In this document: positions 5,565 to 50,851 of the stretch, piece by piece
How positions within the stretch are numbered: the first letter of the stretch is position 1
Layout: the number at the start of each line of letters is the position of its first letter
From: Prevotella sp.
GTDB lineage: Bacteria; Bacteroidota; Bacteroidia; Bacteroidales; Bacteroidaceae
Reading direction: 5' to 3'
Length of the DNA: 53,779 nt
Assembly (NCBI GenBank): GCA_017455845.1
Contig: JAFSYY010000097.1
Location: 1 to 53,779 of the forward strand
Position numbers and translations under genes: made by a program
Notes under the pieces: generated by a model
What the model was told of the DNA's origin: nothing
What the model saw: only the letters and a program-made list of their open reading frames with translations
Database searches by the model: none

Positions 5565-6452
5565 CTATTTCAGCCTGATGACCCTTATGCCGGTATGCGA
5601 TGGATGCTTGGCGAGATACTTGTCAAGGGTCATCGGCTCTTCTACCACCTTTTTGTGGATTTGCGAGGCATTGAGCAGATGTAGTCCGTCGTTGCGCCAT
5701 ACTGCGAAGCCGAGGTGTGCGATGTCGAGTCCTGGCTTTGAGCAGGTGATGGCCAGGATGTCGCCATCGTGGATGATGCTACGGAGCAAGGGGGTGTCTT
5801 TGATGGCCGACTTAGGGATGTAGCGGAACTGCATGCCGCAGAGCCGTTGTTCCTGCCGTACGATGTCTGCGACAAGATCGGGATGAGCCGCGAGTGCCTT
5901 GTATGCCTTTGGATGGCGGCTCATGTAGTTGACTTTTATGGTCTGGGTGGCAGTAAATGGCGGACAGGTGTCCTGTACCTCAGCGACGATGCCTTTGCCG
6001 GTGTTGTCAAGGATCCAGTCGGTGAAATAATGCAGGCGCGAGGGATAGCCGTCGATGATGCCGTTGCGATAGCGCAGCGTTTGCAGTTGGCGGCAGAAGT
6101 CGGCATACGAGAGCGTTTGCTGGCGGTGGCAGATGGCGAGTGCGAGTACATTCTCAATGAGCGTGGTGCAATCCAGTTGGCGGGTGTTGACGACGAGTTG
6201 CTCTGTGTTGTTGACTTCGAGGGTATGTGCCACGTAGGGGCGGTTGAGAAAGAGTCGGGCGAAGTGGAGGATGTCCGAGAAGGGAGAGGTGAGAGTTGAG
6301 GGTTGAGAGTTGAGGGTTGAGGGGTACGAGGTTCGAGGTACGAGGTACGAGGATAGTGTGTGCTCTATGAAGACGCTGTCGGGTGCTTCGCTAGAAAAGA
6401 GTGAAGACGTGCATCCCAAAAGGAAAGTGAGAAAAAGGAGTCTTTTCATCAT
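5565..6452 (-). CDS. DUF1460 protein, predicted exported amidase-like
   Basis: The 295-residue product has a signal peptide (MMKRLLFLTFLLGCTSS) and the DUF1460 core, a group related to NlpC/P60 cysteine peptidases. The likely nucleophile is the Cys in RQLDCTTLIENVLAL, and a conserved His may be in AHLGFAVWRNDG. Family members are thought to be N-acetylmuramoyl-L-alanine amidases acting in the periplasm, but that is an inference. It overlaps the DUF4421 gene by ATGA, so it is the third gene of an operon. Residues about 34-56 (PSTLNSQPSTL and neighbours) are encoded by a 7-base repeat array and are unlikely to be part of the ancestral fold. Confidence 0.85.
   Translation of the reverse strand: MMKRLLFLTFLLGCTSSLFSSEAPDSVFIEHTLSSYLVPRTSYPSTLNSQPSTLTSPFSDILHFARLFLNRPYVAHTLEVNNTEQLVVNTRQLDCTTLIENVLALAICHRQQTLSYADFCRQLQTLRYRNGIIDGYPSRLHYFTDWILDNTGKGIVAEVQDTCPPFTATQTIKVNYMSRHPKAYKALAAHPDLVADIVRQEQRLCGMQFRYIPKSAIKDTPLLRSIIHDGDILAITCSKPGLDIAHLGFAVWRNDGLHLLNASQIHKKVVEEPMTLDKYLAKHPSHTGIRVIRLK
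6284..6353. repeat. Heptad repeat array inside the DUF1460 gene
   Basis: Ten consecutive 7-base units: GAGAGGT, GAGAGTT, GAGGGTT, GAGAGTT, GAGGGTT, GAGGGGT, ACGAGGT, TCGAGGT, ACGAGGT, ACGAGGA. The array keeps the reading frame open and encodes a Ser/Thr/Pro-rich linker between the signal peptide and the catalytic domain. Confidence 0.9.
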
Positions 6453-7570
6453 TCTTGATTTCTGTATTTTTTCTTTAGCCCGAAGTTACAGCCTACATAC
6501 ATGTTGACGGAGCCAAAGGTATTGTTTGTGGAGAATCGCGACTTATGATAGTTGTAGGTGTGGAAGATGACGCTGGTGCCGGCATACCACCGCATATTAT
6601 TATATACCAGTCCGAAGCGGCCTATGCCGTCGAGGTTGATGTTCTGGAAACTGAAGCCCCGGTGGTCTTTACCCTCCACCTCGCCTGAACTTTGTTTATG
6701 AGCGATGGCGGCCTGGACGCTAGCCCCCAGCAGCCAGTTCTTGGCGAAGACCCAGTTGTAGGCATATCCTCCTGAGAGGCTGAAGTCGTAATACCTGACG
6801 CTCTTGAACATCAGTCCGCTGTCCAGTGGCACCGCTTTCTCCCGCATCTTCTGGTTGATAACGCTTTGCAGCAGTTCATGGTCGAATTCTATGGAGTTGC
6901 GCGTATAGCCGAAGCCTGCCAGCCATGAGCCGCAACTTATTTTCTGGATGGTGCTCTGTGCGAAGGCCGCAGGATATGAAAAGCGTCCGTGGTTGAAGAT
7001 ATAATAGATGTTGAAGCCCGTGATGCCCGACTTGAGTCCGTCGAAGGGCGTGCCGTTGAGCATTGACGCGTCGACATGGCTGCCCAGGTCTGCACTGCGC
7101 AGTTTGTAGTCGCTGCCAGTGCGCCGGTAGAAGAGGTCGATGCCGATCTGCGAACTATAGACGCTGAGGTCGAACTCCTGTTTGTCGCTGCTGAAGCCTA
7201 TGTTGTTGAGCGAGAAGGTGTAGCCCAGGAAGATCCATTTCCACCCTGCGTACGGGCCTATGCGCATGTCGGCATCGGGTCCGAACGACACCGACTGTCG
7301 GCTGGCACCCGAAGAGCGCAGGGTGTAGAAGTCGTAACTGCGCGTGGCCTGCAGCATGGCCGCAAAGACATAATGCTGCGGCTCGATATATCGTTTGTCG
7401 AGCCGGTCGAAGCCGCGTACGATGCGCCGTATGAGACTTAACTTCCGGGGTGGGGGACTTGGCAGGGTGTCGGCCTTTTGTACTGGTGTAGAGAGTATAG
7501 TGTCTTGCGTCTCTTGTGCGCAAACGGATGCTGCACAGACCAATGCCAAAAGGAAGAGCAGTCGTCTCAT
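6449..7570 (-). CDS. DUF4421 protein, predicted outer membrane beta-barrel
   Basis: The 373-residue protein begins with a signal peptide (MRRLLFLLALVCAASVCAQ) and continues with DUF4421 features: RRIVRGFDRLDKRYIEP near the N-terminus, then many alternating amphipathic strands (YAGWKWIFLGYTFSLN, FDLSVYSSQIGIDLFY) and a final strand ending near FGLKKKYR. A role in the outer membrane is inferred from this pattern; the substrate is unknown. The start at 7570 is chosen because it gives a clean signal peptide. It lies two bases after the oxidoreductase gene and overlaps the DUF1460 gene, so the three are one operon. Confidence 0.88.
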   Translation of the reverse strand: MRRLLFLLALVCAASVCAQETQDTILSTPVQKADTLPSPPPRKLSLIRRIVRGFDRLDKRYIEPQHYVFAAMLQATRSYDFYTLRSSGASRQSVSFGPDADMRIGPYAGWKWIFLGYTFSLNNIGFSSDKQEFDLSVYSSQIGIDLFYRRTGSDYKLRSADLGSHVDASMLNGTPFDGLKSGITGFNIYYIFNHGRFSYPAAFAQSTIQKISCGSWLAGFGYTRNSIEFDHELLQSVINQKMREKAVPLDSGLMFKSVRYYDFSLSGGYAYNWVFAKNWLLGASVQAAIAHKQSSGEVEGKDHRGFSFQNINLDGIGRFGLVYNNMRWYAGTSVIFHTYNYHKSRFSTNNTFGSVNMYVGCNFGLKKKYRNQE

Positions 7571-7572
7571 GG

Positions 7573-8556
7573 TTAAAACTTCCCTAAGATGCGGTCTAGA
7601 ACCCAGTTGACACTGGTTGCCGACACGCTGGTTGCCGTACAGATGTCGATGCCCTGCAGGTGCTGGCACACATTCTTGATCAGTGGATACTGGACGTATT
7701 TCGGATTAGGCACTTCAATCTGCTGTGCCCCCTGGCTGGTGTGCACTTCTATGGGGGCATAGTTGAACACGGAGAAACTAAGGGTGCCCTGCGTGCCGAT
7801 GATCAGTATGCGGTCTACACGTGCTGACTCATGGCCTACGAAGCACCAGGAGCCGCTGCCGGGCAAGCCATTCTCAAACTGGAAGACGGCACTCACCGTG
7901 TCCTCGGCCGAATAGAGGCGGCCACGGTTGGCACAGATGCCACGCGCCTCGAGGATGATGCCGAACATATCCTGGAGCAGGTCTATCTGATGCGGTGCGA
8001 GGTCGTAGAAATAGCCGCCTCCGGCAATATCGGGCTGGAGTCGCCAGGGCAGATTCTCCGGATGTGCATAGTCCAGCGGTCGCGGTGGCCATGAGAATCG
8101 TATCTGCACATTGATGACATCGCCGATGGTGCCCTGTTGTATCAATTCCTTCACACGCTGGAAATAAGGCAGATGACGCCTGTAGTAGGCCACGAAACAC
8201 GGTATGCCGGTCTGCTCTGAGACCCTGTTTACGCGGATGCAGTCTTCATAGTTGGATGCCAGCGGCTTCTCCACATATACCGGCTTGCCCGCTTTCATGG
8301 CCATGATGGCAAAGGTGGCATGGCTTGACGGCGGTGTGGCCACATAGACGGCGTTGACGTCAGGGTCGTCGATGAGTTCCTGTGCGTCGGTGTACCATCG
8401 TTTCACGCCATGCCGCTCTGCATACAACTGTGCCTTCTGCCTGGTACGGCTCATGACGGCCACCACCGTAGAGCCTTCCACCTCGGCAAAAGCAGGCCCG
8501 CTCTTCAGTTCGCAGACCTCTCCACAGCCAATAAAACCCCATTTCAGTTTCTTCAT
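7573..8556 (-). CDS. Gfo/Idh/MocA family NAD(P)-dependent oxidoreductase
   Basis: A 327-residue cytoplasmic dehydrogenase with an N-terminal Rossmann fold (GFIGCGEVCE at 7-16) and the family signature EKP at 96-98 (KPVYVEKPLASN). The C-terminal substrate domain has GGYFYDLAPHQIDLL, whose Asp/His pair matches the catalytic positions of the family. The substrate, probably a sugar or cyclitol, cannot be told from sequence. It heads an operon with DUF4421 and DUF1460. The candidate promoter at 8787-8794 would give a long leader containing a large inverted repeat. Confidence 0.93.
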   Translation of the reverse strand: MKKLKWGFIGCGEVCELKSGPAFAEVEGSTVVAVMSRTRQKAQLYAERHGVKRWYTDAQELIDDPDVNAVYVATPPSSHATFAIMAMKAGKPVYVEKPLASNYEDCIRVNRVSEQTGIPCFVAYYRRHLPYFQRVKELIQQGTIGDVINVQIRFSWPPRPLDYAHPENLPWRLQPDIAGGGYFYDLAPHQIDLLQDMFGIILEARGICANRGRLYSAEDTVSAVFQFENGLPGSGSWCFVGHESARVDRILIIGTQGTLSFSVFNYAPIEVHTSQGAQQIEVPNPKYVQYPLIKNVCQHLQGIDICTATSVSATSVNWVLDRILGKF

Positions 8557-8587
8557 CGGATTATAAATAATTCAAGTTTCGCATTCG

Positions 8588-8775
8588 CTCAACTTAGTAG
8601 TTAAAAGGAGTTAGAAGTAGTTATCGGCCTTCGGCCTTAGGAGTTAGAAGTCGTTAGTTTCGACTTCTGGAAGAGTTTTGGAGCGACAGGTCTATCGACT
8701 TTTAACTCCTAAGCGACCATAGGCCGCGATAACTCCTTCTAACTCCTTTTAACTCCTCAACTTGAGAAAGTTGAG
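8588..8775. repeat. Large imperfect inverted repeat in the oxidoreductase leader
   Basis: The arm at 8588-8629 (CTCAACTTAGTAGTTAAAAG onward) is the imperfect complement of 8722-8766, which ends CCTCAACTTGAG. Within the arms GTTA recurs every ten bases (GTTAAAAGGA, GTTAGAAGTA, GTTATC). A smaller hairpin AGAAGTCG/CGACTTCT sits inside near 8647-8669. The right edge holds CTCAACTT-GAGA-AAGTTGAG at 8756-8775, a hairpin found again at 19534. No gene lies between 8557 and 8866. Confidence 0.85.
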
Positions 8776-8802: not shown

Positions 8803-8830
8803 TTATGAATTATGAATTATGAATTATCAA
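8803..8830. repeat. Heptad repeat array in a divergent promoter region
   Basis: Units TTATGAA, TTATGAA, TTATGAA and TTATCAA in perfect 7-base register. It occupies the place where the -33 element of the plus-strand promoter would be expected. Confidence 0.85.
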
Positions 8831-8838
8831 TTATTTTG

Positions 8839-10793: not shown

Positions 10794-11741
10794 TTGATAG
10801 AAAAGCATATAGTACTTGAGGATATCGACCCCGTAATGTTCTATGGGGTTGGCAACGTCCATCTTCAGATGTTGCGTGCACTATACCCTAAACTGCGTAT
10901 CGTGGCCCGCGACAACGTGCTGCGGATCATGGGCGATGAAGAGCAGATGGCCGCCTTCGAAGACAGTAGCGAGAAGATGCGCCTCCATCTGCTGAAGTTC
11001 AATTCTATCACAGAAGAAGACATTATAGATATTATAAAAGGTAAGCGCACGCGCGACGAGGTGCCCGAGGGCGTGGTGACATACTCTATCGCCGGCCGCC
11101 CCATCAAGGCCCGTAGCGAGAATCAGCAACGCCTTGTCGACGCTTTCCGCAATGACGACATGGTGTTTGCCGTAGGCCCCGCCGGAACAGGAAAGACCTA
11201 CCTGTCTATCGCATTGGCCGTGAGGGCACTGAAGGATAAGACAGCCAAGAAGATTATCCTCAGCCGCCCCGCTGTGGAGGCTGGCGAGAAACTGGGCTTC
11301 CTGCCCGGTGATATGAAAGATAAGATAGACCCCTACCTGCAGCCCCTCTACGATGCGCTGGAGGATATGCTCCCGCAGGTGAAACTGCAGGACATGATGG
11401 AGAAGCACGTCATCCAGATAGCACCCCTGGCATTCATGCGGGGCCGCACGCTCAACGATGCCGTGGTTATCCTGGACGAGGCCCAGAACACCACACCCGC
11501 CCAGATCCGTATGTTCCTCACCCGCATGGGGTGGAACACCAAGATGATTATCACGGGCGACATGACGCAGATAGACCTGCCCCATTCCCAGAAGAGCGGA
11601 CTCATAGAAGCCCTGCATATTCTCAGCGGCGTAGAGGGCATCAGCGTGGTCAACCTCAATGGCAAAGACATCGTCAGGCATAAACTGGTGACGCGCATTG
11701 TCAATGCATACGAGGCGTTTGACAAGGAGAGGGAGAGTTGA
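10794..11741 (+). CDS. phoH: PhoH-family ATPase
   Basis: A 315-residue cytoplasmic P-loop ATPase of the PhoH/YbeZ group, linked to RNA metabolism in relatives. Walker A is GPAGTGKT (128-135), Walker B is VVILDEAQN (near 224), and the region SRPAVEAGEKLGFLPGDMKDKIDPY is diagnostic. The frame has no ATG before the conserved N-terminus: it appears to start with TTG at 10794 (MIEKHIVLED), so an unusual start codon is used. The last residues (ERES) and the stop codon are made by the heptad repeat array starting at 11733, so the original C-terminus may have been replaced. Confidence 0.93.
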   Translation: MIEKHIVLEDIDPVMFYGVGNVHLQMLRALYPKLRIVARDNVLRIMGDEEQMAAFEDSSEKMRLHLLKFNSITEEDIIDIIKGKRTRDEVPEGVVTYSIAGRPIKARSENQQRLVDAFRNDDMVFAVGPAGTGKTYLSIALAVRALKDKTAKKIILSRPAVEAGEKLGFLPGDMKDKIDPYLQPLYDALEDMLPQVKLQDMMEKHVIQIAPLAFMRGRTLNDAVVILDEAQNTTPAQIRMFLTRMGWNTKMIITGDMTQIDLPHSQKSGLIEALHILSGVEGISVVNLNGKDIVRHKLVTRIVNAYEAFDKERES

Positions 11742-11774
11742 GAGTTGAGGGTTGAGAGATGAGAGTTGAAAGAT
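11733..11774. repeat. Heptad repeat array at the phoH stop codon
   Basis: Six units: GAGAGTT, GAGAGTT, GAGGGTT, GAGAGAT, GAGAGTT, GAAAGAT. The phoH stop TGA (11739-11741) spans the first two units. Confidence 0.9.
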
Positions 11775-14351: not shown

Positions 14352-15623
14352 ATGGAAGAAGCCTGGACTATACTGGGAATGTATATCATTGTCTTCGGTG
14401 CCATCATTTTCGGTGGTGTCTATGCCGACCTGAAAAGCAAAGGGCGCGGGCACGCTTTGCTCGCGGCCCGGAAGAAAGACCTCCTGGATTGTGCTTCCAG
14501 CCATAACAGAAACATCAATGCGTTGGAGCGGCAATATAAGGACGAGAAAAAGACGCTGAAGTCGCAAAGGCTGATTATCGACCGGCTGACAAACAAAACC
14601 AGCGAGAGCCTCCGGCAGCAATACGAGACACGCTATAAGCAGGAAAAGGTGTCGTATCAGCGTGAGGTCCAGCAGATTATCAGACAATGGAACACGGAGA
14701 AGAAGGCCGACCGCCCCTGGACCTTATTCTGGAAAGGACTGTTTATCGTGGGTATTATCACGCAGACGGCGGCCTGCGTCCACTCCGTAGTCGCCATGCA
14801 GCCTGATATGCCTGTGCCTTCGTCAAGCAGCCTCATGGAACATCGTGAGTGGAACGCCAAGGATATTCCCATGCCCCATCTCACCGATGGCTCACGCTAT
14901 GTTTCCAATCCCGACAGCATCGTCAGTGAGACAACCGTCCGTCGGCTCGATGCCATGCTGAAACAACTTGACGACTCGCTGGGAATAGAGTCGGTGGTGG
15001 CTATCGTGCGGCGCGTGGAGAATGCCGACATCTTCCGCTTCTCGCAAGACATCTTCGATATCTACAAGGTGGGCAAGAACGACCGCGGACTGGTTATGGT
15101 GCTGGCCTACGACGACCATCTGTTCCGCACGCACACAGGCCACTCGCTGGAGGGCGACCTCACCGATGCTGAATGTTTCCGCCTGCAGGAACGCTATCTG
15201 ATACCCAGCATGAAAGCCGAGATGCCCGACAGCGGAATGATTTATATGGTCGAAGCCGTTTACAACACGCTCAGGGGTAAGGACTTGCCCGTCATGTCTG
15301 CGCTGCGTGCCAACTCCTCGTCAACCGATGATGATGACAGCGGCCTCATACCCGCCATCTATTATTTCCTGCTGTGCGGGTGGCTCATCCTCTATTTCTT
15401 CGTGTCTAAGCGACACGGATGGAACATCCGCCGTTATGCCAACGGCCTGCTTATGGCCAATCCCTTTGTTGCAGCAGCCGTCGCGTCGGGGCCAGTCATC
15501 TTCTCTGGCGGGGGCGGCAGTTCCCGAGGCGGGGGCTTCGGCGGTGGCTTCGGCGGCGGTGGCTTCAGTGGCGGCTTTGGTGGCGGTAGTAGCGGTGGCG
15601 GCGGGGCCACGTCGCGATGGTAA
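14352..15623 (+). CDS. TPM-domain membrane protein with glycine-rich tail
   Basis: A 423-residue protein with an N-terminal membrane span (about 5-26), a coiled-coil region rich in Lys/Glu/Gln (about 30-115), a second span (about 125-145), a TPM domain (about 180-315; YVSNPDSIVSETTVRRLDAM, then GLVMVLAYDDHLFRTHTGHS), a third span (about 335-352) and a Gly/Ser-rich tail from 386 ending ATSRW. TPM proteins of the YgcG type have been linked to phosphatase activity or photosystem repair, and their Gly-rich tail is typical. The long coiled coil before the TPM domain is an addition I do not know from the short family members. The next gene encodes LemA, a common partner. Confidence 0.88.
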   Translation: MEEAWTILGMYIIVFGAIIFGGVYADLKSKGRGHALLAARKKDLLDCASSHNRNINALERQYKDEKKTLKSQRLIIDRLTNKTSESLRQQYETRYKQEKVSYQREVQQIIRQWNTEKKADRPWTLFWKGLFIVGIITQTAACVHSVVAMQPDMPVPSSSSLMEHREWNAKDIPMPHLTDGSRYVSNPDSIVSETTVRRLDAMLKQLDDSLGIESVVAIVRRVENADIFRFSQDIFDIYKVGKNDRGLVMVLAYDDHLFRTHTGHSLEGDLTDAECFRLQERYLIPSMKAEMPDSGMIYMVEAVYNTLRGKDLPVMSALRANSSSTDDDDSGLIPAIYYFLLCGWLILYFFVSKRHGWNIRRYANGLLMANPFVAAAVASGPVIFSGGGGSSRGGGFGGGFGGGGFSGGFGGGSSGGGGATSRW

Positions 15624-16298: not shown

Positions 16299-17486
16299 AT
16301 GATGGACAACCGTTACATGCAGCGTGGCGTCAGTGCCGCCAAGGAAGACGTCCACGCTGCCATCAAAAACATTGACAAGGGTCTCTTCCCGCAGGCCTTC
16401 TGTAAGATTATACCCGACATCCTGGGCGGCGACCCCGACTATTGTAACATCATGCATGCCGACGGGGCAGGCACCAAGTCGAGCCTCGCCTATATGTACT
16501 GGCGCGAGACGGGCGACCTCTCCGTGTGGAAGGGCATTGCCCAGGATGCCATCGTGATGAATACCGACGACCTGCTCTGCGTGGGTGCGGTGGATAATAT
16601 CCTGGTCAGTTCCACCATCGGGCGCAATAAGATGCTCATCCCCGGCGAGGTTATCTCGGCCATCATCAACGGCACCGACGAACTGCTGGCCGAACTCCGT
16701 AACATGGGCATAGGCATCTATCCCACTGGCGGCGAGACGGCCGACGTAGGCGACCTGGTGCGCACCATTATCGTAGACAGTACCGTGACCTGTCGCATGA
16801 AGCGCAGCGATGTCATCGACAATGCCAACATACGGCCGGGGGATGTCATCGTGGGACTCTCGTCAACGGGGCAGGCCACCTACGAACACCGGTATAATGG
16901 TGGCATGGGCAGCAACGGCCTCACCTCGGCCCGCCACGATGTCTTTGCGAAGTACCTCGCAGAGAAATATCCTGAGAGTTACGACCATGCCGTGCCCGAT
17001 GAACTGGTGTACAGCGGCCATTATCGGCTGACGGATGAAGCCGACCTCTCACCTCTCGCCTCTCACCACTCACCTCTGTCAATGGGAGAACTCGTCCTCT
17101 CGCCGACGCGCACTTACGCTCCTGTCATCAAGCAACTGCTCGACGAACTGCGTCCAGAGATTCACGGAATGGTGCATTGTACAGGTGGTGCACAGACCAA
17201 GGTGCTACATTTCGTAGGCGACAACTGCCGCGTAATCAAGGACAATATGTTCCCCGTACCCCCGCTGTTCCGTGCCATCCATGAGTGTTCAGGCACTGAC
17301 TGGCGTGAGATGTATCAGGTCTTCAACATGGGTCACCGCATGGAGATCTATGTCCGACCCGAGATTGCCGACCAGGTTATCGCTGTCTCAAAGTCGTTTA
17401 ACATCGATGCCCAGGTGATAGGCCGCATAGAGGAAGGCCGGAAAAGCCTCTTGATAAAGTCCGAATTTGGAGAATTTAATTACTAG
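16299..17486 (+). CDS. purM: Phosphoribosylformylglycinamidine cyclo-ligase
   Basis: Makes AIR from FGAM in purine synthesis. The 395-residue product has the N-terminal motif MHADGAGTKSSLAYMYW, the conserved DAIVMNTDDLLCVGA, PTGGETADVGDLVRTI, and in the second domain GLSSTGQATYEHRYNGG. This is the long Bacteroidetes form of PurM. Residues about 249-260 (SPLASHHSPLS) come from a heptad array at 17043-17077 and interrupt the second domain without breaking the frame. The gene follows LemA by nine bases and ends just before another heptad array. Confidence 0.95.
   Translation: MMDNRYMQRGVSAAKEDVHAAIKNIDKGLFPQAFCKIIPDILGGDPDYCNIMHADGAGTKSSLAYMYWRETGDLSVWKGIAQDAIVMNTDDLLCVGAVDNILVSSTIGRNKMLIPGEVISAIINGTDELLAELRNMGIGIYPTGGETADVGDLVRTIIVDSTVTCRMKRSDVIDNANIRPGDVIVGLSSTGQATYEHRYNGGMGSNGLTSARHDVFAKYLAEKYPESYDHAVPDELVYSGHYRLTDEADLSPLASHHSPLSMGELVLSPTRTYAPVIKQLLDELRPEIHGMVHCTGGAQTKVLHFVGDNCRVIKDNMFPVPPLFRAIHECSGTDWREMYQVFNMGHRMEIYVRPEIADQVIAVSKSFNIDAQVIGRIEEGRKSLLIKSEFGEFNY
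17043..17077. repeat. Heptad repeat array inside purM
   Basis: Units GACCTCT, CACCTCT, CGCCTCT, CACCACT, CACCTCT in 7-base register, read in frame as a Ser/Pro/His peptide. Confidence 0.88.
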
Positions 17487-19783: not shown

Positions 19784-19897
19784 ACGCGGTTCTTTGTCAG
19801 CCGTCAAAGATATTTTTTTCTGTTAAGCATTTTTCCTGAATCCGCTAAACTTTTCAGCACCTTTTTCTTTTCTTCCCTAAAAATTCTTCTTCAAAAG

Positions 19898-38978: not shown

Positions 38979-40493
38979 ATGGCAGAAACGACACGGCATC
39001 TGACCGAAAACGATGAAGGCAGTTACGGTCATGTGCTGAAATATATAAGCATCTTCGGCGGCGTGCAAGGCTTGAATATCCTGATAGGTCTTGTGCGCAA
39101 TAAGATTGTGGCCTACTTGCTGGGACCTAACGGCATGGGCTTGGTATCGCTGTTCAACTCTACCATCAATTTCATCTCGCAGGCCACCAACCTGGGTATC
39201 TCGTTCAGTGCCATCCGCCATGTGTCGGAATTGTTTGATTCCGGCGACGAGGCGCGTATCCGGCATTTTGTCAAGGTTGTCAGGCTATGGAGTCTGCTGT
39301 CGGCTCTCATCGGTATGTTGGTGTGCGTGGTGGCCGGCCCTTGGCTGAGCGACAATACCTTCTCATGGGGTAACCACACCCTGCATTTCGTCATGCTCGC
39401 ACCGGCCGTAGGCCTGCTGGCTGTCACGGGCGGCGAGATGGCCATCCTCAAGGGCTGCCGCAAACTGAAGGCGCTGGCGATGATTCAGGTGTACAACATC
39501 TTTATCTCACTGGTTCTCTCCGTTCCCATCTATTATTTTTTCAACCAGACAGGTATTGTGCCTGTCATCGTGTTGATGGCACTTGCATCCATGATAACCA
39601 CGATATGCTATTCCTACCGTTTCTATCCTCTCTCCTTGCATGGCTATTCCGGCTTGCTGGGCGAGGGTGGTGAGATGATACGCCTGGGCATAGCCTTTGT
39701 GTTGGCAGGCGTGCTGGGCAGTGGGGCCGAGATATTGATTCGTTCCTACCTCAATGTGGTGGGCGACCTGGATGTGGTGGGCTTCTATAATGCGGGCTTT
39801 ATGCTGACCATGACCTACGCAGGCATGGTGTTCTCTGCCATGGAGACGGACTATTTCCCCCGTTTGTCGGCCGTTGTCGGCAGTGTGGAGAAAATCAGGG
39901 AAACGGTAAACCGCCAGATAGAGGTGACGCTGCTCCTCGTGTCGCCCATGCTCACGGCCCTTATCATTGGCATGCCGGTGGTCATTCCCTTGCTGTTTAC
40001 CAGTGAGTTCATACCAATCGTCGGCATGTCGCAGGTGGTGCTTCTGTCCATGTATCTGAGGGCTGTCTACCTGCCCATAGCCTATATCACGCTGGCCAAG
40101 GGCGACTCCGTTCAGTATCTTGTGCTGGAGGGCATCTACGACGTGCTGCTGGTATTGCTGGTCATCGTGGGCTACTACTTCTGGGGCCTTTTCGGTACGG
40201 GTGTGGCCCTGGCCATAGCCAATATCTCGGACATCGTCATCATCAACGTCTTTGCCCTGGCTCGCTATCGCTATCGTATGTCGGCCAGTGTGGTGGTCTA
40301 CCTCTTGATGAATATGCTCTTTGGCCTCTTGGCCTACGCGCTGACCTTCATCGGCAATCCGTATGTTTATTGGCCCTTGGGCATCCTGGTGTCTCTTGCC
40401 AGCCTGACATTCTCGTTGGTCGTACTGCATCGAAAGGTGTCGCTATGGAATGCCTTGTGGGAAAAAATCCGTAACCGGTTCAAACTGTCATAG
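38979..40493 (+). CDS. Wzx-type polysaccharide flippase
   Basis: A 504-residue membrane protein of the MATE/polysaccharide-flippase superfamily, with about twelve to fourteen spans. The N-terminal VLKYISIFGGVQGLNILIGL followed by LGPNGMGLVSLFNSTINFIS and TNLGISFSAIRHVSEL resembles O-antigen flippase WzxE-type proteins; the end part shows GDLDVVGFYNAGFMLTMTYA. It should move lipid-linked glycan units across the inner membrane. An ATG seven codons upstream lies on the -7 box itself, so 38979 is the better start. Together with the divergent glycosyltransferases it forms a small surface-glycan locus. Confidence 0.92.
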   Translation: MAETTRHLTENDEGSYGHVLKYISIFGGVQGLNILIGLVRNKIVAYLLGPNGMGLVSLFNSTINFISQATNLGISFSAIRHVSELFDSGDEARIRHFVKVVRLWSLLSALIGMLVCVVAGPWLSDNTFSWGNHTLHFVMLAPAVGLLAVTGGEMAILKGCRKLKALAMIQVYNIFISLVLSVPIYYFFNQTGIVPVIVLMALASMITTICYSYRFYPLSLHGYSGLLGEGGEMIRLGIAFVLAGVLGSGAEILIRSYLNVVGDLDVVGFYNAGFMLTMTYAGMVFSAMETDYFPRLSAVVGSVEKIRETVNRQIEVTLLLVSPMLTALIIGMPVVIPLLFTSEFIPIVGMSQVVLLSMYLRAVYLPIAYITLAKGDSVQYLVLEGIYDVLLVLLVIVGYYFWGLFGTGVALAIANISDIVIINVFALARYRYRMSASVVVYLLMNMLFGLLAYALTFIGNPYVYWPLGILVSLASLTFSLVVLHRKVSLWNALWEKIRNRFKLS

Positions 40494-40497
40494 CCTT

Positions 40498-42873
40498 ATG
40501 AATGATTTGTTGTCACAACTGAATGAGAGCCAGCGCGAAGCGGTGAAATACTGCGACGGTGCCTCGCTGGTGATAGCAGGTGCCGGCTCAGGCAAGACCC
40601 GTGTGCTGACCTATAAGATAGCGTGGCTGCTGCAGGAGCAGGGGCTGAAGCCTTGGAACATCCTGGCACTGACCTTCACCAACAAGGCTGCCCGCGAGAT
40701 GAAAGAGCGCATAGCACGGCTGGTGGGGCCCGACGAGGCCCGCTATCTGAACATGGGCACGTTTCATAGCGTCTTCTCCCATATCCTGCGTGTGGAGGCC
40801 GCGAAGATTGGCTTCGCCTCCAACTTCACCATCTACGACCAGTCGGACGCCCGCTCGCTGGTGAAGAGCATCGTCAAGGAGATGGCCTTGGACGACAAGG
40901 TCTACAAGCCGTCGAGCGTCAGCGACCAGATATCAATGGCCAAGAACCACCTGATTCTGCCCAATGCCTTCGTCAACTGCTCGCTCTATGACAGCAAGCG
41001 CCCCAAGGTGGCCGAGGTCTATGTGCGCTATGCCGAGCGCTGCCGTCAGGCCAATGCGATGGACTTCGACGACCTGCTGGTGCAGACCTTCCTGCTGTTC
41101 CAGAACCATGAGGATGTGCGCCGCAAATACGTGGAGCGTTTCCGTTATGTGCTGGTCGATGAGTACCAGGACACCAACTTCGCCCAGCAGAAGATCGTGC
41201 TGCAACTTACGCAGGACCATCAGCATGTATGTGTGGTGGGCGACGATGCGCAGAGCATCTATAGTTTCCGGGGGGCCAATATCGATAATATATTGAATTT
41301 CAGAGACTCGTACGATGATGCCCGTTTGTTTAAACTGGAGCAGAACTACCGCTCCACGCAACTCATCGTGCAGGCGGCCAACAGCCTGATACGCAAGAAC
41401 GAGCGACAGATACCAAAGGATGTCTACAGCCGCAACGACGAGGGTGAAAGGCTGATGCTCAAGCCTGCCTACAGCGACAAGGAGGAGGCTATCATCGTCT
41501 GCAAGGACATACAGCGGCTGCGCCGGCAGGAGCATGCCGACTATAGCGACTTTGCCATCCTCTACCGCACCAACTCGCAGAGCCGTTCCTTCGAGGAGCA
41601 GATGCGCAAGGACGGCATTCCCTACCGCATCTATGGTGGCCTTAGTTTCTATCAGCGCAAGGAAATCAAGGATGTGATTGCCTATTTCCGGCTGGTGACC
41701 AATCCCAACGACGAAGAGGCTCTGAAGCGTATCATCAACTATCCCACACGCGGCATCGGCGATACCACCCTCAACAAGATTGTGCAGACGGCCACCACGT
41801 ATGGTGTGTCGCTCTGGACGGTTATCTGCCAGCCCACGCTCTTCCATCTGAACATCAGTGCCGCCACGGCGAAGAAGGTGGAGGCCTTCAGGCTGTTGAT
41901 AGAGGGGTGGGCGGCACGCAAGGAGGCTGAGGATGCCTACGTGCTGGGACATGCCATCATCATGGAGAGCGGCATATCCAGGGAGATATACTCCAGCCGT
42001 AACCCCGAGGACATCTCTCGGCAGGAGAACCTGGAGGAGTTTCTCGGCGGTATGCAGGACTTCGTGGAGAGCCGTCGCGAGGAGGGCCTTGGCAACCAGG
42101 TGGCCTTGGGCGACTTCCTGCAGGAGGTGGCGCTGCTCACCGACCTCGACAGCGAGGGCGATGCCGACCAGCCCAAGGTGTCGCTGATGACCATCCATTC
42201 GGCCAAGGGCCTGGAGTTTCCAACGGTGTTTGTCGTGGGCCTGGAGGAAAATATCTTCCCATCGCCCATGTGCACCGGCTCTATGCGCGAACTGGAGGAA
42301 GAGCGTCGTCTGCTCTACGTGGCCATCACCCGTGCCGAGCGTCACTGCATCCTCACCTGTGCCCAGAACCGCTTCCGCTATGGACGCATGGAATATGATA
42401 CGCCCTCGCGCTTCATACGCGACATCGACCCTAAGTTATTGTGCGTAGAAGGCTCCCTTGGTCAACAGGAACCATCGCACCTCGCACCTCGCACCTCGCA
42501 CTTCGAAGCATCGGAATGGATGCAGAACCCGCGTCCCGTGGCCACTCAGTTCCGTGCTGATCCCAGACCACGTCAGGTGGCCCCGCGCAGGCCGGAGCCT
42601 CAGGTGGACCCCTTCAGCAATTCCTTTAAGCGTCAACTCAGCATGGCCAGTGGCGGGCGATTCAAGCCAGTGGCCTCTCCCTCTCCTTCTCCTTCTTCCA
42701 ATTCTCCTTCCTCCCTCAAGGAGGGCAACGTCATCGAGCACCAGCGCTTCGGCATCGGCACAGTGGTCAGGATTGAGGGCACTGGCGAGAACGAGAAGGC
42801 CACGGTGGAGTTTCGTAATGCAGGCACCAAGCAACTGCTGTTGAAGTTTGCCAAGTATCAAATCATATCATAG
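40498..42873 (+). CDS. uvrD: UvrD/PcrA-family DNA helicase
   Basis: A 791-residue superfamily 1A helicase for repair and replication. Motif I is VIAGAGSGKTRVLTYK (near 24-39), Ia is LALTFTNKAAREMKER, II is YVLVDEYQDTNFAQQK, III is VVGDDAQSIYSFRGA, IV is LEQNYRSTQLIV, V is TIHSAKGLEFPTVFVVGLEE and VI is LLYVAITRAE. Two tandem-repeat regions lie in the C-terminal tail: residues about 660-669 (SHLAPRTSHF) from a heptad array at 42475-42502 and a Ser/Pro stretch at about 727-740 from 42676-42717. The last 60 residues (HQRFGIGTVVRIEG) form the usual C-terminal Tudor-like domain. It starts five bases after the flippase gene. Confidence 0.96.
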   Translation: MNDLLSQLNESQREAVKYCDGASLVIAGAGSGKTRVLTYKIAWLLQEQGLKPWNILALTFTNKAAREMKERIARLVGPDEARYLNMGTFHSVFSHILRVEAAKIGFASNFTIYDQSDARSLVKSIVKEMALDDKVYKPSSVSDQISMAKNHLILPNAFVNCSLYDSKRPKVAEVYVRYAERCRQANAMDFDDLLVQTFLLFQNHEDVRRKYVERFRYVLVDEYQDTNFAQQKIVLQLTQDHQHVCVVGDDAQSIYSFRGANIDNILNFRDSYDDARLFKLEQNYRSTQLIVQAANSLIRKNERQIPKDVYSRNDEGERLMLKPAYSDKEEAIIVCKDIQRLRRQEHADYSDFAILYRTNSQSRSFEEQMRKDGIPYRIYGGLSFYQRKEIKDVIAYFRLVTNPNDEEALKRIINYPTRGIGDTTLNKIVQTATTYGVSLWTVICQPTLFHLNISAATAKKVEAFRLLIEGWAARKEAEDAYVLGHAIIMESGISREIYSSRNPEDISRQENLEEFLGGMQDFVESRREEGLGNQVALGDFLQEVALLTDLDSEGDADQPKVSLMTIHSAKGLEFPTVFVVGLEENIFPSPMCTGSMRELEEERRLLYVAITRAERHCILTCAQNRFRYGRMEYDTPSRFIRDIDPKLLCVEGSLGQQEPSHLAPRTSHFEASEWMQNPRPVATQFRADPRPRQVAPRRPEPQVDPFSNSFKRQLSMASGGRFKPVASPSPSPSSNSPSSLKEGNVIEHQRFGIGTVVRIEGTGENEKATVEFRNAGTKQLLLKFAKYQIIS
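42475..42502. repeat. Heptad repeat array inside the UvrD-type gene
   Basis: Units TCGCACC, TCGCACC, TCGCACC, TCGCACT, in frame as SHLAPRTSHF. Confidence 0.9.
42676..42717. repeat. Pyrimidine-rich heptad-like array inside the UvrD-type gene
   Basis: Units TCTCCCT, CTCCTTC, TCCTTCT, TCCAATT, CTCCTTC, CTCCCTC, an imperfect 7-base period coding for a Ser/Pro linker. Similar units recur at 45872-45913. Confidence 0.6.
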
Positions 42874-42878
42874 CATAT

Positions 42879-43649
42879 ATGCGCTTCTTTATCACTCTGA
42901 GTTACGACGGCACGCGTTTCCACGGCTGGCAGGTACAGCCCAACGGCATCTCGGTGCAGGGCGAGTTACAGCGGGCCTTGTCGTTGCTGCTGCGTCAGGA
43001 TGTCCAGGTAACGGGTGCCGGTCGTACCGATGCCGGTGTGCATGCCCGTATGATGGTGGCCCATTTCGACTTGGCATCCCTTTCCTCCTCCCTCGCATCT
43101 CCTCCCTCGCACCTCGTACCTCGCACCTCCCTCCAACAACTGGCATACAAGTTGAACAGGCTGCTGCCTCAGGATATTGCCGTGCAGCGTGTGGAGCCCG
43201 TCAGCGACGATATGCACGCCCGTTTCTCGGCCACTTCGCGTACCTATTATTATTATATACACACGGAGAAATCGCCTTTTGAGCGTCATTACTCCTGTGA
43301 ACTCCATTATCCGCTGGACTTCCAGAAGATGAACGAGGCAGCACGCATGCTGCTGGATTATGAGGATTTCGGTGCCTTCTGCAAGAGCCATGCCGACGTG
43401 AAGACTACGCTTTGCAAAGTGACTTGTGCCCAGTGGCACCAGACATCGCCCTCTGCCTGGTATTTCGAGATTACCGCCAACCGCTTCCTGCGTAATATGG
43501 TGCGTGCCGTTGTGGGCACACTGATCGAAGTGGGGCGGGGCCGCATGACGTTGGACGATTTCCGGCGTGTCATAGAGGGTAAGCGTCGCACCGAGGCCGG
43601 TGAGTCGATGCCCGCCAACGCCCTCTTCCTCGTTGACATTAAGTATTAA
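42879..43649 (+). CDS. truA: tRNA pseudouridine synthase A
   Basis: Makes pseudouridine at positions 38-40 of tRNA. The 256-residue protein has the catalytic Asp in VTGAGRTDAGVHARMMV, the N-terminal FITLSYDGTRFHGWQVQPNG and the end NRFLRNMVRAVVGTLIEVGR. A seven-unit heptad array (43084-43132) inserts SLASPPSHLVPRTS at about residues 69-85, just after the catalytic loop and before LAYKLNRLLPQDI. The insert lies in a place where loop length varies, and the frame is kept. It follows the UvrD-type gene by five bases. Confidence 0.96.
   Translation: MRFFITLSYDGTRFHGWQVQPNGISVQGELQRALSLLLRQDVQVTGAGRTDAGVHARMMVAHFDLASLSSSLASPPSHLVPRTSLQQLAYKLNRLLPQDIAVQRVEPVSDDMHARFSATSRTYYYYIHTEKSPFERHYSCELHYPLDFQKMNEAARMLLDYEDFGAFCKSHADVKTTLCKVTCAQWHQTSPSAWYFEITANRFLRNMVRAVVGTLIEVGRGRMTLDDFRRVIEGKRRTEAGESMPANALFLVDIKY
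43084..43132. repeat. Heptad repeat array inside truA
   Basis: Seven units: CCTCCTC, CCTCGCA, TCTCCTC, CCTCGCA, CCTCGTA, CCTCGCA, CCTCCCT. Confidence 0.9.
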
Positions 43650-45084: not shown

Positions 45085-46275
45085 TTATTTCAGATTAAGC
45101 CTCAAGCCCAGATTCAGGTTAAGACTGAAGGGCTTGTCCTGATAGAAGGTGGGGATGTCGCTGCCATTGTCGAAATAATAGCCTATGCCTGGCTCTGCGT
45201 AGATGCTGAACCGATGGGTAAGGTTTAACTCCGCCCCGATACCACCATTTACAGAGAACTGCAAGGGATGGATGCTGATGCTTTCTTCCTGTTCCAGTCC
45301 CTTTGTTGTAGTATGTAGTCTGCCGTTCACCATCTTCTCCACCATTCCACCCCCTGAGACGTAGAAGTTGACACGGCGGCTGGACCATAGTTGAAAACTG
45401 ACATTGACAGGTATGCCTATATACGACAAGGTCTGTTCTGCTGTTGCCCCACCACCCCACTTGTAGTCTGAGCGAAGGCGGGTGTAAGCCAGTCCGCTCT
45501 CAACGCTCCACCTGTCACTGAGACGATAGCGGAGGGACAGTCCGAAGCGTACAGGCAGATGGTGGTTTACGGCAACGGGGATACCAGGATACTCCTCATC
45601 TATATTTGAGAAGAGTTCTGTTGTTTTTCCGTCCACGCCATTCTCTGGGGTGAGGTGTTCATTCTTATCTACTGGCACGCCCCCATATTCAGACAATCTG
45701 TCACCACCCGCCAAGCCATTCGACAAATAGACCTGTGCCATCAGGCGACTATCGGTGGTTGGTTGTTTACGGACGAAGGAAGGCTCATCCAACGTCTGGC
45801 GCTTGGGCATTTCGCCAACCGTCTGGGTTTGATGAGTCGCTTGCTGTTCGCGAGGTTCCTCTGGCTCACCATTCCTTCCTCCTTCCTCCTTTCTCCCTTC
45901 TCCCTCCTCCTTGGAGGTAGCCATCGCCATGAACTGAGTATGTGGAGCCTGCACTGGGGTTCTGTTCCCTTGTGCATCGATGGGTTCATCCTTCTTTTGT
46001 TGTGGTAAGTCCGTTATATGACTGACGGCAGGCTCCACCTTATTATATATATAAGGTACTTCGTCGTGATGCCTGTTCAACGCCAGATAGGCCCCTGTTA
46101 CAACGACCAGCGCCACGACAGCCGCCGCCACCCTGCGCATCCACATCGGGACCACTTTAGCCTTCTGCCTATTCTTGGCCAGCGCCTTGTCGAGCACCTC
46201 CCACGACACCTCAGGGGCAGGCCGTCGGTAGTCTGCCATCTTCTGTTGCATCTGTTGTCTCCATTGTTCTTTCAT
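45085..46275 (-). CDS. Beta-barrel protein with N-terminal single membrane span, partner of an ECF sigma factor
   Basis: A 396-residue protein whose first 45 residues are soluble and charged (MKEQWRQQMQQKMADYRRPA), followed by one hydrophobic span (about 48-66, RRVAAAVVALVVVTGAYLAL). Residues 67-210 are low-complexity and polar; the C-terminal ~190 residues are amphipathic strands of an outer membrane beta-barrel (FGLSLRYRLSDRWSVESGLA, FYVSGGGMVEKMV, FSIYAEPGIGYYF) ending LNLGLRLNLK. Its ATG overlaps the sigma gene by four bases. An anti-sigma-like cytoplasmic head joined to a barrel is the inferred design, seen in other Bacteroidetes. Residues about 121-134 come from a heptad array. Confidence 0.82.
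   Translation of the reverse strand: MKEQWRQQMQQKMADYRRPAPEVSWEVLDKALAKNRQKAKVVPMWMRRVAAAVVALVVVTGAYLALNRHHDEVPYIYNKVEPAVSHITDLPQQKKDEPIDAQGNRTPVQAPHTQFMAMATSKEEGEGRKEEGGRNGEPEEPREQQATHQTQTVGEMPKRQTLDEPSFVRKQPTTDSRLMAQVYLSNGLAGGDRLSEYGGVPVDKNEHLTPENGVDGKTTELFSNIDEEYPGIPVAVNHHLPVRFGLSLRYRLSDRWSVESGLAYTRLRSDYKWGGGATAEQTLSYIGIPVNVSFQLWSSRRVNFYVSGGGMVEKMVNGRLHTTTKGLEQEESISIHPLQFSVNGGIGAELNLTHRFSIYAEPGIGYYFDNGSDIPTFYQDKPFSLNLNLGLRLNLK
45872..45913. repeat. Pyrimidine-rich heptad array inside the beta-barrel gene
   Basis: Six units: TTCCTTC, CTCCTTC, CTCCTTT, CTCCCTT, CTCCCTC, CTCCTTG. In frame on the minus strand as EEGEGRKEEGGRNG. Confidence 0.85.
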
Positions 46276-48241: not shown

Positions 48242-49213
48242 ATGATACTGGTTTTCGGAGGAACGACGGAGGGTCGCAAGGCCGTGGAGGTGCTGGAAGA
48301 GAGCGGTGCCACCTATTATTATAGTACGAAGACGGGCGAGCAGGACATCACCCTGCATCATGGGCAGCGCATCGACGGAGCACTTGACAGAGAGGCTATG
48401 CGTGCTTTTTGTCAGGAGCATGCCATTCGTCTCATAGTGGATGCAGCCCATCCCTTCGCCTCGCAACTGCATCAGACGATTGCTTCTATCTCTGAGGCGT
48501 TGAATATTCCCGTTGTCCGTTATGAGCGCATCTACCCGCCCCGCGACCCCAGCATCACGTGGATAGACGACTATTCGCAGGTACCTACCGACATCCATTC
48601 GCTGTTGGCAACGACGGGTGTGCAGAGTATCAGCCGCCTTAAATGGCTGGAGGAGCAAGGGGTCAAGGTTATCTATCGCATCCTCAATCGGAAATCGTCG
48701 ATAGCCCTGGCCCATCAACAGGGGGCAAATGACGACCAACTTGTAGTAGGTCACGCTTCCCAGCGTGACAACGCCGAAGAGTTTGTCACGCTAGGATGTG
48801 ACAACGCCGAAGAGTTTGTCACGCTAGGAAGCGTGACCTACTATGTAGATGCTATTCTTATGAAAGAGAGCGGACTATCGGGCGGTTTTGTAGAAAAGGT
48901 GGAGGAAGCGAGGCAACGCGGACTTCGTATCATCGCCTTGAAGCGGCCGGAATTATCAATGGTCAATGGTCAATGGTCAATGGTCAACGGCCCTTACGGG
49001 CTGCGTCGTACAATAGAGAAACTGTTGCCGGCGTTCTACCCCCTGCATAGCGGACTGACCACAGGCACCTGCGCTACGGCAGCGGCAGTGGCGGCAACGC
49101 TTCAATGGCTTAACTCTTCACCGGCGTCAGCCGATTCTTCACTCTTCACTCTTCACTTCCATCTGAAGTGCCCGTCATCCTGCCTAATGGCGAAACCATC
49201 CATGTGCCTGTAG
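48242..49213 (+). CDS. cbiJ: Cobalt-precorrin-6A reductase, N-terminal part of a cbiJ-cbiD fusion
   Basis: The 323-residue frame starts MILVFGGTTEGRKAVEVLEE, the nucleotide-binding motif of CobK/CbiJ (GGTTEGR), and continues with IVDAAHPFASQLHQTI and VRYERIYPP, typical of the family. It reduces precorrin-6A in cobalamin synthesis. Two insertions lie within it: a 100-base palindromic element (48744-48843, residues about 168-201) and a heptad array (48956-48990, residues about 239-250). From residue about 269 (HSGLTTGTCATAAAVAATLQ) the sequence is the start of CbiD, so the two enzymes are fused. The frame ends at 49213 because the next array shifts the frame. Confidence 0.88.
   Translation: MILVFGGTTEGRKAVEVLEESGATYYYSTKTGEQDITLHHGQRIDGALDREAMRAFCQEHAIRLIVDAAHPFASQLHQTIASISEALNIPVVRYERIYPPRDPSITWIDDYSQVPTDIHSLLATTGVQSISRLKWLEEQGVKVIYRILNRKSSIALAHQQGANDDQLVVGHASQRDNAEEFVTLGCDNAEEFVTLGSVTYYVDAILMKESGLSGGFVEKVEEARQRGLRIIALKRPELSMVNGQWSMVNGPYGLRRTIEKLLPAFYPLHSGLTTGTCATAAAVAATLQWLNSSPASADSSLFTLHFHLKCPSSCLMAKPSMCL
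48744..48843. repeat. 100-base palindromic element inserted in frame in cbiJ
   Basis: Terminal inverted repeats of 17 bases, TAGTAGGTCACGCTTCC (48744-48760) and its complement (48827-48843), enclose two 32-base copies, 33 bases apart (48765-48796 and 48798-48829), of a unit that is itself an inverted repeat (GTGACA...TGTCAC). The 33-base step keeps the frame and encodes DNAEEFVTLG twice. Confidence 0.93.
48956..48990. repeat. Heptad repeat array inside cbiJ
   Basis: Units TCAATGG (four times) and TCAACGG, in frame as SMVNGQWSMVNG. Confidence 0.93.
49137..49157. repeat. Heptad array at the first cbiD frame break
   Basis: Three units of CTTCACT. A related unit CTTCACC lies at 49116-49122. Confidence 0.9.
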
Positions 49214-49300
49214 GCTATGGCGATGGCTATGCCTATTGCATCAAGGAGGCTGGCGACGACCCCGACGTGACAAATGGACTGGAGATAAGGGCAACGTGCC

Positions 49301-49349
49301 AAATGAGAAATGAGGAATTAGAAATGAGGAACGGAAATGAAGAAATGAG
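49301..49349. repeat. Heptad array inside the middle part of cbiD
   Basis: Units AAATGAG, AAATGAG, GAATTAG, AAATGAG, GAACGGA, AATGAAG, AAATGAG. It lies within the middle frame and does not break it (MRNEELEMRNGNEEMR). Confidence 0.8.
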
Positions 49350-49486
49350 GCATGACACTCGCGTCGAGATTATTGGCGGCGAGGGCGTTGGCCGCTTCAC
49401 GCTGCCCGGCTTCGACTATCCTCCTGGTGAAGCCGCCATCAACAAGGCGCCACGCCAGATGATAGAACAGAACATCAAGTCTATCC

Positions 49487-49521
49487 TCTCACCTCTTACC
49501 CCTCACCCCTCACCTCTCACC
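49487..49521. repeat. Heptad array at the second cbiD frame break
   Basis: Units TCTCACC, TCTTACC, CCTCACC, CCTCACC, TCTCACC. Confidence 0.9.
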
Positions 49522-50202
49522 TCTAATCATCACCATCAGCGTTCCTAACGGCGAGGAAATCGCAAAAAAAACCTTCAATCCCCGTCTCGGCATTGAAGGT
49601 GGCATCAGCATTATCGGTGTGTCGGGCATCGTCAAGCCATTCAGCGAGGAGGCCTTCATCGACAGCATCCGCAAATGTATGACGGTGGCGAAGGCCAGCG
49701 GCACCGACCGTGTGGTCATCAACAGCGGAGGCAAGAGCGAGCGATTCGTAAAGGCCCTCTACCCCACCCTGCCCCAACAGGCGTTCGTGGAATACGGCAA
49801 CTATATCGGTGAGACGCTTAAGATGGCTCATGAACTCGGTTTCAAGGAGGTGACCCTCGGCGTGATGCTGGGCAAGGCCGTGAAACTGGCTGAAGGTCAA
49901 CTAGACACGCACAGTAGGAAGAGTACCATGAACAAAACCTTCATTCAGCAAATGCTCAATGAAGCCAATTGTCCGCTCGGCCGAAGGACGCTTGCCAACA
50001 ACGGGTCGCAAGAATTCTCAATTAATATTTCTCAATTGTCGTTGGCCCGTGAACTATGGGACCTGATACCCGTACAGCAGCGTCAGTCGTTTGCCGACAC
50101 GGTCATACGTCATTGTGCAGAGCACTGCAAGCCACTACTGCCCAACGGCAACCTCACCATCCTGCTCATAGACAACGACGGCCACATCTATGAATAAGCC
50201 AT

Positions 50203-50781: not shown

Positions 50782-50808
50782 TCTTAATGCTTTATCCTTA
50801 ATTTTCTG

Positions 50809-50816
50809 CAAAGGTA
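50809..50816 (-). promoter_or_regulatory. -7 box of the purN promoter
   Basis: TACCTTTG on the minus strand, 27 bases before the start codon. Confidence 0.7.
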
Positions 50817-50823
50817 AAAAAAA

Positions 50824-50851
50824 TTATCTATTATCAATTGTCAATTATCAT
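50824..50851. repeat. Heptad array between divergent purN and pgi promoters
   Basis: Units TTATCTA, TTATCAA, TTGTCAA, TTATCAT. The third unit provides the TTG of the pgi promoter. Confidence 0.85.

Follow-up and report, generated by a model that had tools for sequence, protein, structure and literature searches.

We analysed a 53,779-nucleotide stretch of Prevotella sp. DNA (GenBank assembly GCA_017455845.1, contig JAFSYY010000097.1; hereafter the window), which carries a dispersed family of short tandem repeats with a seven-base unit (heptad arrays). The window is contig C49 of a draft genome (G000) of 2,433,443 bp (2.43 Mb) in 124 contigs, estimated at 68% complete. A preliminary description of the window had listed 22 period-7 arrays. 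Tandem Repeats Finder (TRF) reported a period-7 row at 21 of these places, and the remaining repeat, at 42676, has a period of six (CCTCTC). The arrays at 24770 (76% matches) and 49301 (72% matches and 9% indels) are weak and were reported by TRF alone; the other 19 also pass a stricter lag-7 score.

Many of the arrays lie within open reading frames (ORFs), which were called with a simple, and thus crude, longest-ORF script. On the plus strand, GAGAGTT/GAGGGTT units pass into GGTACGA units (6277-6352) within an AmiA-like ORF (5565-6452, minus), GAGAGTT units (11733-11769) lie at the end of a PhoH ORF, and GGAGGGG/TGAGAGG units (36398-36436) lie within an ORF at 35928-37160 (minus). A minus-strand GAGAGGT array (17044-17074) is found in an AIRS-family ORF (16299-17486, plus). 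The GAATTGA array at 27861-27888 (plus) is antisense in a Na/H exchanger-TrkA_C gene (26946-29252, minus), between its two Pfam domains. The gene for glutaminyl-tRNA synthetase (GlnRS; 34033-35829, minus) contains an antisense array of the AGTGAAG class (34993-35019, plus) and, adjoining it, a conserved cap TAATTTGCTTCCGC (35020-35033, plus), whose core GCGGAAGCAAA is read on the minus strand at 35023-35033; this is the only capped copy in the window. The variable linker of a UvrD-like helicase (40450-42873, plus) carries antisense GAGGTGC units (42475-42505, minus), and a loop of TruA (42879-43649, plus) a mixture of GAGGTGC and GAGGTAC (43084-43130, minus). A GGAGGAA array (45873-45910, minus) is in the sense direction of an outer-membrane barrel gene (45085-46275, minus). 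The CbiJ ORF (48242-49213, plus) holds a perfect TCAATGG array of 4.6 copies (48956-48987, plus), and a minus-strand AGTGAAG array at 49136-49157 has no adjoining cap. CbiD sequence contains the weak, interrupted AAATGAG array (49301-49349, plus) and an antisense GAGAGGT array (49485-49524, minus). The CbiJ and CbiD sequence at 48242-50197, with its four heptad arrays, is divided among overlapping ORFs that differ in frame, a sign of either a broken gene or an error in the draft.

Other arrays occupy gaps between genes. A TTATGAA array (8803-8834, plus) is intergenic and immediately upstream of a TACCTTTG-type sequence, which we take to be the Bacteroidetes -7 promoter element. AGTT(T/C)AG units (17485-17523, plus) separate two plus-strand genes, and both GAATTGT (26927-26962, minus) and GAA(C/T)TAT (30612-30671, minus) lie between two minus-strand genes. 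The TGATAAT/TGACAAT array (50823-50850, minus) is in a divergent gap upstream of a promoter-like sequence, TATCTTTGCA. The remaining arrays are AGTT(T/C)A(G/T) with a higher-order period of 21 bp (18689-18756, plus), the weak TAGTGAA array (24770-24802, plus), and GAGTTAA/GAGTTAT in strict alternation, giving a 14-bp period with 100% matches (29256-29289, plus).

The heptad excess is real, genus-wide and uneven. In the window, 16 lag-7 identity runs of at least 10 bases were found against 0.1 expected (mean of 20 first-order Markov sequences). Runs of at least 13 bases numbered 10 at lag 7, one at lag 9, none at the other lags from 4 to 13, and eight each at lags 14 and 21. To these data we added a genome-wide sample of G000, 20 further stretches totalling 269,467 of the 2,433,443 bp (323 kb with the window). 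The period histogram, which the preliminary description had named as a test of the family, has its peak at seven: arrays of periods 3 to 14 in the sample numbered 1, 1, 0, 1, 70, 2, 8, 5, 2, 1, 1 and 15. Period 22 is likewise prominent (16 arrays in 269 kb). One third-order Markov control gave no period-7 array and a single array over all periods. The density of period-7 arrays over the 323 kb is 27.5 per 100 kb, at many dispersed loci.

Relatives were retrieved with the UvrD protein of the window; they are Prevotellaceae, mostly draft genomes from ruminants, one of them being the complete chromosome of Prevotella communis E15-14. Densities in ten congeners, from samples of 56-80 kb per genome, were 3.1 to 25.7 per 100 kb; for G010, G035, G097 and part of G018, however, the regions were chosen at (GAGTTGA)3 matches, which inflates their density and unit sharing. 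Over 80 related loci (1.56 Mb), runs of at least 12 bases numbered 37 at lag 7, compared with 15 at lag 8 and 0-5 at each remaining lag between 4 and 13; lags 14 and 15 had 22 and 8. Arrays of 8- and 9-base units similar in content to the heptads occur in related species, which, with the relatedness of the units described below, leaves the earlier idea that many unrelated seeds all settle on seven unsupported. An assembly or binning artefact, for which a 124-contig draft of 68% completeness might give grounds, has a virtually negligible probability, because the excess is shared by independent assemblies of related species, including the P. communis E15-14 chromosome (arrays at 3842-3886 and 15422-15443 of locus L013); in addition, arrays sit in frame within conserved genes. 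By their period-7 excess, their dispersed loci, and their differences in length and sequence between close relatives, the arrays belong with the heptameric simple sequence repeats of bacteria.

The units share a purine-rich, C-poor and often TGA-containing grammar and are not unrelated to each other, as the preliminary description had supposed; they are variants of one theme. Read on the purine strand they contain 4.7% C, against 17% in random heptamers, and TGA occurs in 64% of units, against 28% of letter-shuffled units and 16% of random heptamers. Among 227 arrays from 52 genomes, each at least 300 bp from any other, 3.6% of pairs between genomes had identical units, compared with 0.3% when letters were shuffled within the unit and 0.1% for random heptamers. 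A phylum-wide grammar was considered and rejected. Four repeats of RRTTGAN occur in 49 of 296 genomes (25 of 140 genera), and the backward pattern matches too; on viral contigs the pattern matched at least 120 stretches and the composition control (RRGTATN, four repeats) 71. Among 80 locus/unit combinations from viral loci with units other than RRTTGAN, 20% were exact Prevotella classes against 9.7% in shuffles, the maximum of 200 shuffles also reaching 20%; we regard this signal as weak.

Within genomes the sharing of units is stronger. Identical units made up 7.9% of within-genome pairs, and without G000 the figures were 19.9% within and 5.0% between genomes; the observed within-genome count was reached by none of 300 label permutations. 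In G010 one unit makes up 10 of the 12 sampled arrays, and G000 has 28 consensus unit classes in 323 kb. Neighbouring units, said earlier to be near-identical, are often a mixture of two to four variants. Variation in long arrays is concentrated at one position, which holds 0.64 of it against 0.39 expected. In some arrays, adjacent identical units numbered 82 against 84.4 expected, a near-random mixture of two unit types, and in a wider set of longer arrays 558 against 490.9, neighbours thus being weakly alike.

The ends of the arrays in G000 are also not random. Growth from random seeds should give uniform start phases, and the left ends in G000 are not uniform (p 2e-9; the end-phase tests cover arrays that fit a reference unit at 85%). 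Arrays begin in the phase in which the unit is written here in 11 of 14 cases for AGTGAAG, 5 of 7 for AAATGAG and 9 of 17 for CGAGGTG. A Monte Carlo test of the left ends gave p 0.0002, the smallest possible value, for all 67 arrays, for the 52 without a nearby cap and for the 28 of those that are coding; the right ends gave weaker values (p 0.0008, 0.011 and 0.044, respectively).

Arrays of the AGTGAAG class usually end in a conserved cap, so that the purine strand reads (AGTGAAG)n-AATTTGCTACCGC. The cap core GCGGNAGCAAA occurs 102 times in the G000 draft, compared with two occurrences of the backward pattern. We read 41 distinct G000 caps with their flanks: 32 pass directly and in one register into (CTTCACT)n, six reach this repeat past an insert of about 40 bases, and three do not. 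The boundary at GCGG is sharp, and the sequences upstream of it are mostly unrelated. Ten facing inverted pairs with gaps of 13-105 bp account for 20 of the 100 caps at listed G000 places, among which no pair of the opposite arrangement lies within 130 bp. In congeners, GCGGNAGCAAAYTYT was found in 161 of 348 genomes (maximum 94 copies), where single copies can be chance; about 95 genomes by hand count have at least five copies, and the backward control reached at most one per genome. In a sample of the order, a longer cap pattern was found 47 times in G000, once in one other of 198 genomes, and nowhere else. Heptads of other types (CTCTCAA, CTCTACA, CTCTAAA, TTTTCAC) follow the cap in other species. 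There, 40 of 62 distinct caps run into period-7 sequence, against 1.4% of random stretches, although many of these loci were found with a pattern that includes four heptad bases. A search of five sources with Rfam at gathering thresholds returned RNase P in one of them (L096) and otherwise nothing at the arrays or the cap.

Further conserved flanks were noticed. A longer version of the cap with about 40 extra hairpin-like bases (TTGCGTCCCTTCGGTAGCAAGCGACCAGAGGTCGAGCGC) between core and heptads occurs at L105, L092, L464 and other loci of G000, and at L089 and L106 the longer version is followed by other heptads. Loci L468 and L469 of G000 have a different hairpin-like conserved sequence, CAGTCGCTACGCTTTGTGAAAGCGTC, next to their heptads, and L072 has a similar one. 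At L463, L479 and L480 (G000), AATGAAG arrays lead into CTGCGCC(A/G)AGC...CATGCTTCGTTT, which may represent either a third flank of this conserved kind or a repeated gene family.

With respect to genes, 48 of 89 arrays are inside ORFs and 41 outside (37 intergenic, four at stretch edges); ORFs cover 92% of the bases, so arrays are enriched about five-fold outside genes. A strong preference for non-coding DNA is a trait of bacterial heptameric simple sequence repeats. Those within genes occupy variable places such as the UvrD linker and the TruA and GlnRS loops. The TruA loop is 14 residues longer than that of the nearest relative, and G013 carries a different heptad there. In the GlnRS loop, heptads that agree in length but not in unit are present in four species and a 9-bp repeat in one, the loop being short in most others. 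Two heptad arrays, at 14396-14441 and 14544-14563, lie within the RNase P RNA gene of G000 (L096, 14363-14805).

The enrichment outside genes might reflect a selected function of the purine-rich strand in intergenic mRNA, for example by providing a spacer without structure or by binding a translation factor, which would parallel a proposal made for the TAACTGA repeats in Beggiatoaceae. The purine strand is sense in 17 of 25 of the window genome's own arrays in co-directional gaps, in 23 of 36 (period 7) and 15 of 18 (period 8) in relatives, and in 14 of 16 capped copies in such gaps; certain arrays span the entire gap from stop to start. This bias may, however, reflect mere tolerance of gaps, and the arrays inside ORFs and in the RNase P RNA gene speak against such a function. 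Arrays are also not kept at orthologous gaps, an array-free homologue being found for 18 of the 29 intergenic arrays with a homologous site. We regard this explanation as quite unlikely.

Turnover at orthologous sites was evident. The same two-gene gap holds, depending on the species, AATTATC heptads, octads (TTTCGATG, GTTATTAC or TTTTTACC) or no array. No close relative of the window's species was found, the UvrD-TruA stretch having a DNA match of 79% at best over the 375 genomes scored out of 398. The decisive turnover comparison was therefore made in another species pair, G041 and G296, which share 95.7% identity over 171 kb. In this pair some arrays are identical and one differs by 14-bp steps. 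A convergent gap has a 7-bp array (AACTATG/AACTCTG) on one side and a 9-bp array (CTGAGAACT) on the other; one array is present on one side alone; and an inverted capped pair on one side corresponds to a shorter palindrome, with 78 bp less, on the other. At one convergent site (L458:16496-16625 and L448:15103; 96% genome identity), G041 has a 7-bp array where G296 carries 8-bp arrays as an inverted pair (TAGGAGTA). Over all loci 275 arrays were tested, and a homologous site elsewhere was found for 50, with an array-free homologue for 32 and an array-bearing one for 30. At the 32 sites with array-free homologues, the net length difference was a multiple of three in 12 of 14 coding and 4 of 18 intergenic cases.

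The window also holds other tandem repeats. These are a 22-bp repeat TGTCGACCTAGGTCAATCGATC with 4.7 copies (19682-19784), a 36/73-bp repeat with an inverted-repeat core (GCAGCGG...CCGCTGC; 4208-4350), and a 21-bp repeat CCATCGGCACGGACGCTATTT with 5.7 copies (30303-30421); a stretch similar to the latter, CATCGGCATGGACGCTATT, follows immediately after the heptad array at 26927-26962. Units of 9 and 10 bp that include GTTAA/GGAGTTA and resemble the heptads in content form arrays at 8596-8757 and 19552-19595, those at 8596 and 8730 being in opposite orientations.

The reading that we consider best, with a probability of roughly one half, is within-genome copying of arrays combined with local slippage and filtered by selection. 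Arrays, or seeds of a few units, would be copied from existing arrays to new sites of the same genome, which would give each genome its favourite units and preferred end phases; in the AGTGAAG class the cap would travel with the array as neighbouring sequence. Once placed, arrays would expand or contract and change their unit or even their period through local slippage, or through unequal exchange, in steps close to seven. Selection would remove harmful arrays and leave those that are intergenic or in frame in variable loops of genes. Copying is favoured because it explains the genome-specific units, the fixed end phases and the cap, which independent slippage does not. We infer that copying proceeds by recombination or repair (possibly template switching or ectopic conversion with arrays as donors) and not by a dedicated enzyme, since neither the reverse transcriptase nor the Y1 transposase family tracks the arrays or the cap. 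In general, the capped and uncapped arrays point to a little-studied spreading repeat beyond chance slippage. Only tentatively would we call it a new kind of spreading repeat in Prevotella, with phase-locked heptads and one capped class, that copies itself and swaps its unit genome-wide while the cap stays constant, through a recombination- or repair-driven seven-base step and with no transposase or reverse transcriptase of its own.

Several results weigh against copying. The left-end phase preference is absent in the other genomes (n=61, p 0.29), where a preference was found at the right end alone (p 0.0006). Copying of long segments is unsupported: in G000, shared strings of at least 21 bp with two unit types gave 75 pairs against 46-71 in eight shuffles, and shared variant strings of at least 28 bp numbered 17 against 7-23; short copies or later reshuffling would fit this result. 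Multiples of seven are not enriched among net insertion lengths (3 of 32). Array-free homologues match the unit at six of seven bases in 44% of cases, compared with 18% for other units, so local seeds or remnants play some part. Enrichment of flanking 9-mers revealed no cap for other unit classes, and the array-rich G010 has no cap copies; a cap is therefore not required for arrays. No copying enzyme was found, neither of the two families tested (PF00078 and PF01797) being associated.

The last-named seed matches would be expected if each array arose by independent polymerase slippage with a step near seven from chance seeds, shared units resulting from a bias in slippable sequence, for example towards strands without self-pairing. 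Slippage was the hypothesis of Mrazek et al. 2007, cited in PMC4692102, whose accessible text also reports from that work an excess of heptamers in many bacteria, for which the polymerase footprint is offered as a guess. The occurrence of periods 8 and 9, including the change from 7 to 9 at one locus within 4% divergence, is in line with this, as are the C-poor units, which fold little (62% of five-copy unit strings, compared with 25% of random strings, fold no better than -1 kcal/mol). Letter-shuffled units, however, fold equally little (58%), yet identical pairs between genomes are twelve times rarer among them, and genome-specific units, end phases and a sharply bounded cap are not predicted. 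Independent slippage explains growth, loss and period change in place; as an account of the whole family it is doubtful. Alternatively, the capped class could be a small, non-autonomous mobile element, its cap being an end recognised by a trans-acting transposase, by analogy with REP/BIME sequences and Y1. The sharp GCGG boundary with unrelated sequence outside, the approximately 100 copies, the facing pairs with no opposite ones, and the patchy distribution across the genus with near-absence from the order are as such an element would have them. Among 25 genomes tested, however, Y1_Tnp (PF01797) was not found in G296 (94 caps), G105 (27) or G035 (7), and G000 has one weak match at the cut-off, so the Y1 transposase was rejected as the driver. 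Uncapped unit classes are as numerous as the capped one in G000, and the few empty sites examined, too diverged for a proper test, showed no target-site duplication. A mobile element is thus unlikely.

The preliminary description had raised a templated or enzyme-driven mechanism that spreads heptads. Signs of spread are indeed present in the shared units, the preferred end phase and the capped class. The fixed end phase and the near-random mixture of two units would be expected from a loosely positioned template, such as that of a telomerase-like reverse transcriptase. The version with a reverse transcriptase is not supported, as PF00078 matched three of the 11 array-rich genomes tested and eight of the 11 array-poor ones (the latter picked solely for the absence of one unit, (GAGTTGA)3), and there was none in G000 (68% complete), G097, G035, G018, G105, G181, G590 or G630. 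The many units per genome would need many templates, and neighbouring units are somewhat alike in longer arrays; templated synthesis is therefore highly improbable.

Heptameric repeats are a known and poorly understood class in bacteria, and their preference for seven has been an open question since it was first noticed. Prevotella genomes are suited to telling dispersal from slippage, since they contain hundreds of arrays, include closely related species pairs in which an array is one-sided, and have a tagged class whose copies are traceable. If the arrays do spread by copying, they would be a constant source of new protein loops (UvrD, TruA, GlnRS) and intergenic sequence in a dominant rumen genus.

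Among known systems, REP/BIME and BOX elements are short dispersed sequences with about 100 copies, a defined end and inverted pairs, BOX having a repeated internal module. The facing caps resemble REP/BIME in their inverted pairs. REP/BIME elements are further marked by a palindromic unit and a Y1 transposase encoded in the genome. They differ in that no head motif or hairpin has been established in a single capped copy, and in having no link to Y1 (RAYT), PF01797 lacking in the cap-rich G296 and G105. The STRR repeats of heterocystous cyanobacteria are tandem heptamers scattered across the genome, and the resemblance of a genome-wide heptad family to them, proposed earlier, was borne out. 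The unit sequences differ, the host here is a Prevotella relative and not a cyanobacterium, and STRR repeats are not known to have a cap. The description of the family as having no described counterpart needs revision: heptamers have been described in Bacteroidetes (PMC4679880), and for Prevotella itself none was found in the open-access literature, nor, judging by titles, among papers matched by literal cap and array strings. According to the accessible text of PMC4679880, TAACTGA repeats occur in Beggiatoaceae, cyanobacteria and five Bacteroidetes; like our arrays, they often stand in sense orientation immediately before start codons and are missing from the homologous gaps in relatives. The unit classes of G000 do not include TAACTGA, which by our own comparison is one base from AATTGAT, a unit found here. 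That system differs in having one unit, with related heptamers rare in Beggiatoa, and in that part of the source no cap or genome-wide unit exchange is described. The accessible text of PMC4692102, where STRR tandem heptamers are also cited, describes heptameric simple sequence repeats in Xanthomonas and Nostoc (GGGAATC, GGGGA(C/T)T). As in our arrays, dispersed seven-base units have within-unit variants, shared intergenic sites of relatives differ in length and sequence, and inverted pairs lie between convergent genes (PMC4692102). Unlike those repeats, which have one or two G-rich unit types per genome as far as that text goes, the arrays reported here comprise the 28 classes of G000, lie in ORFs in over half of cases, require no G-tract, and include one class with a conserved cap.

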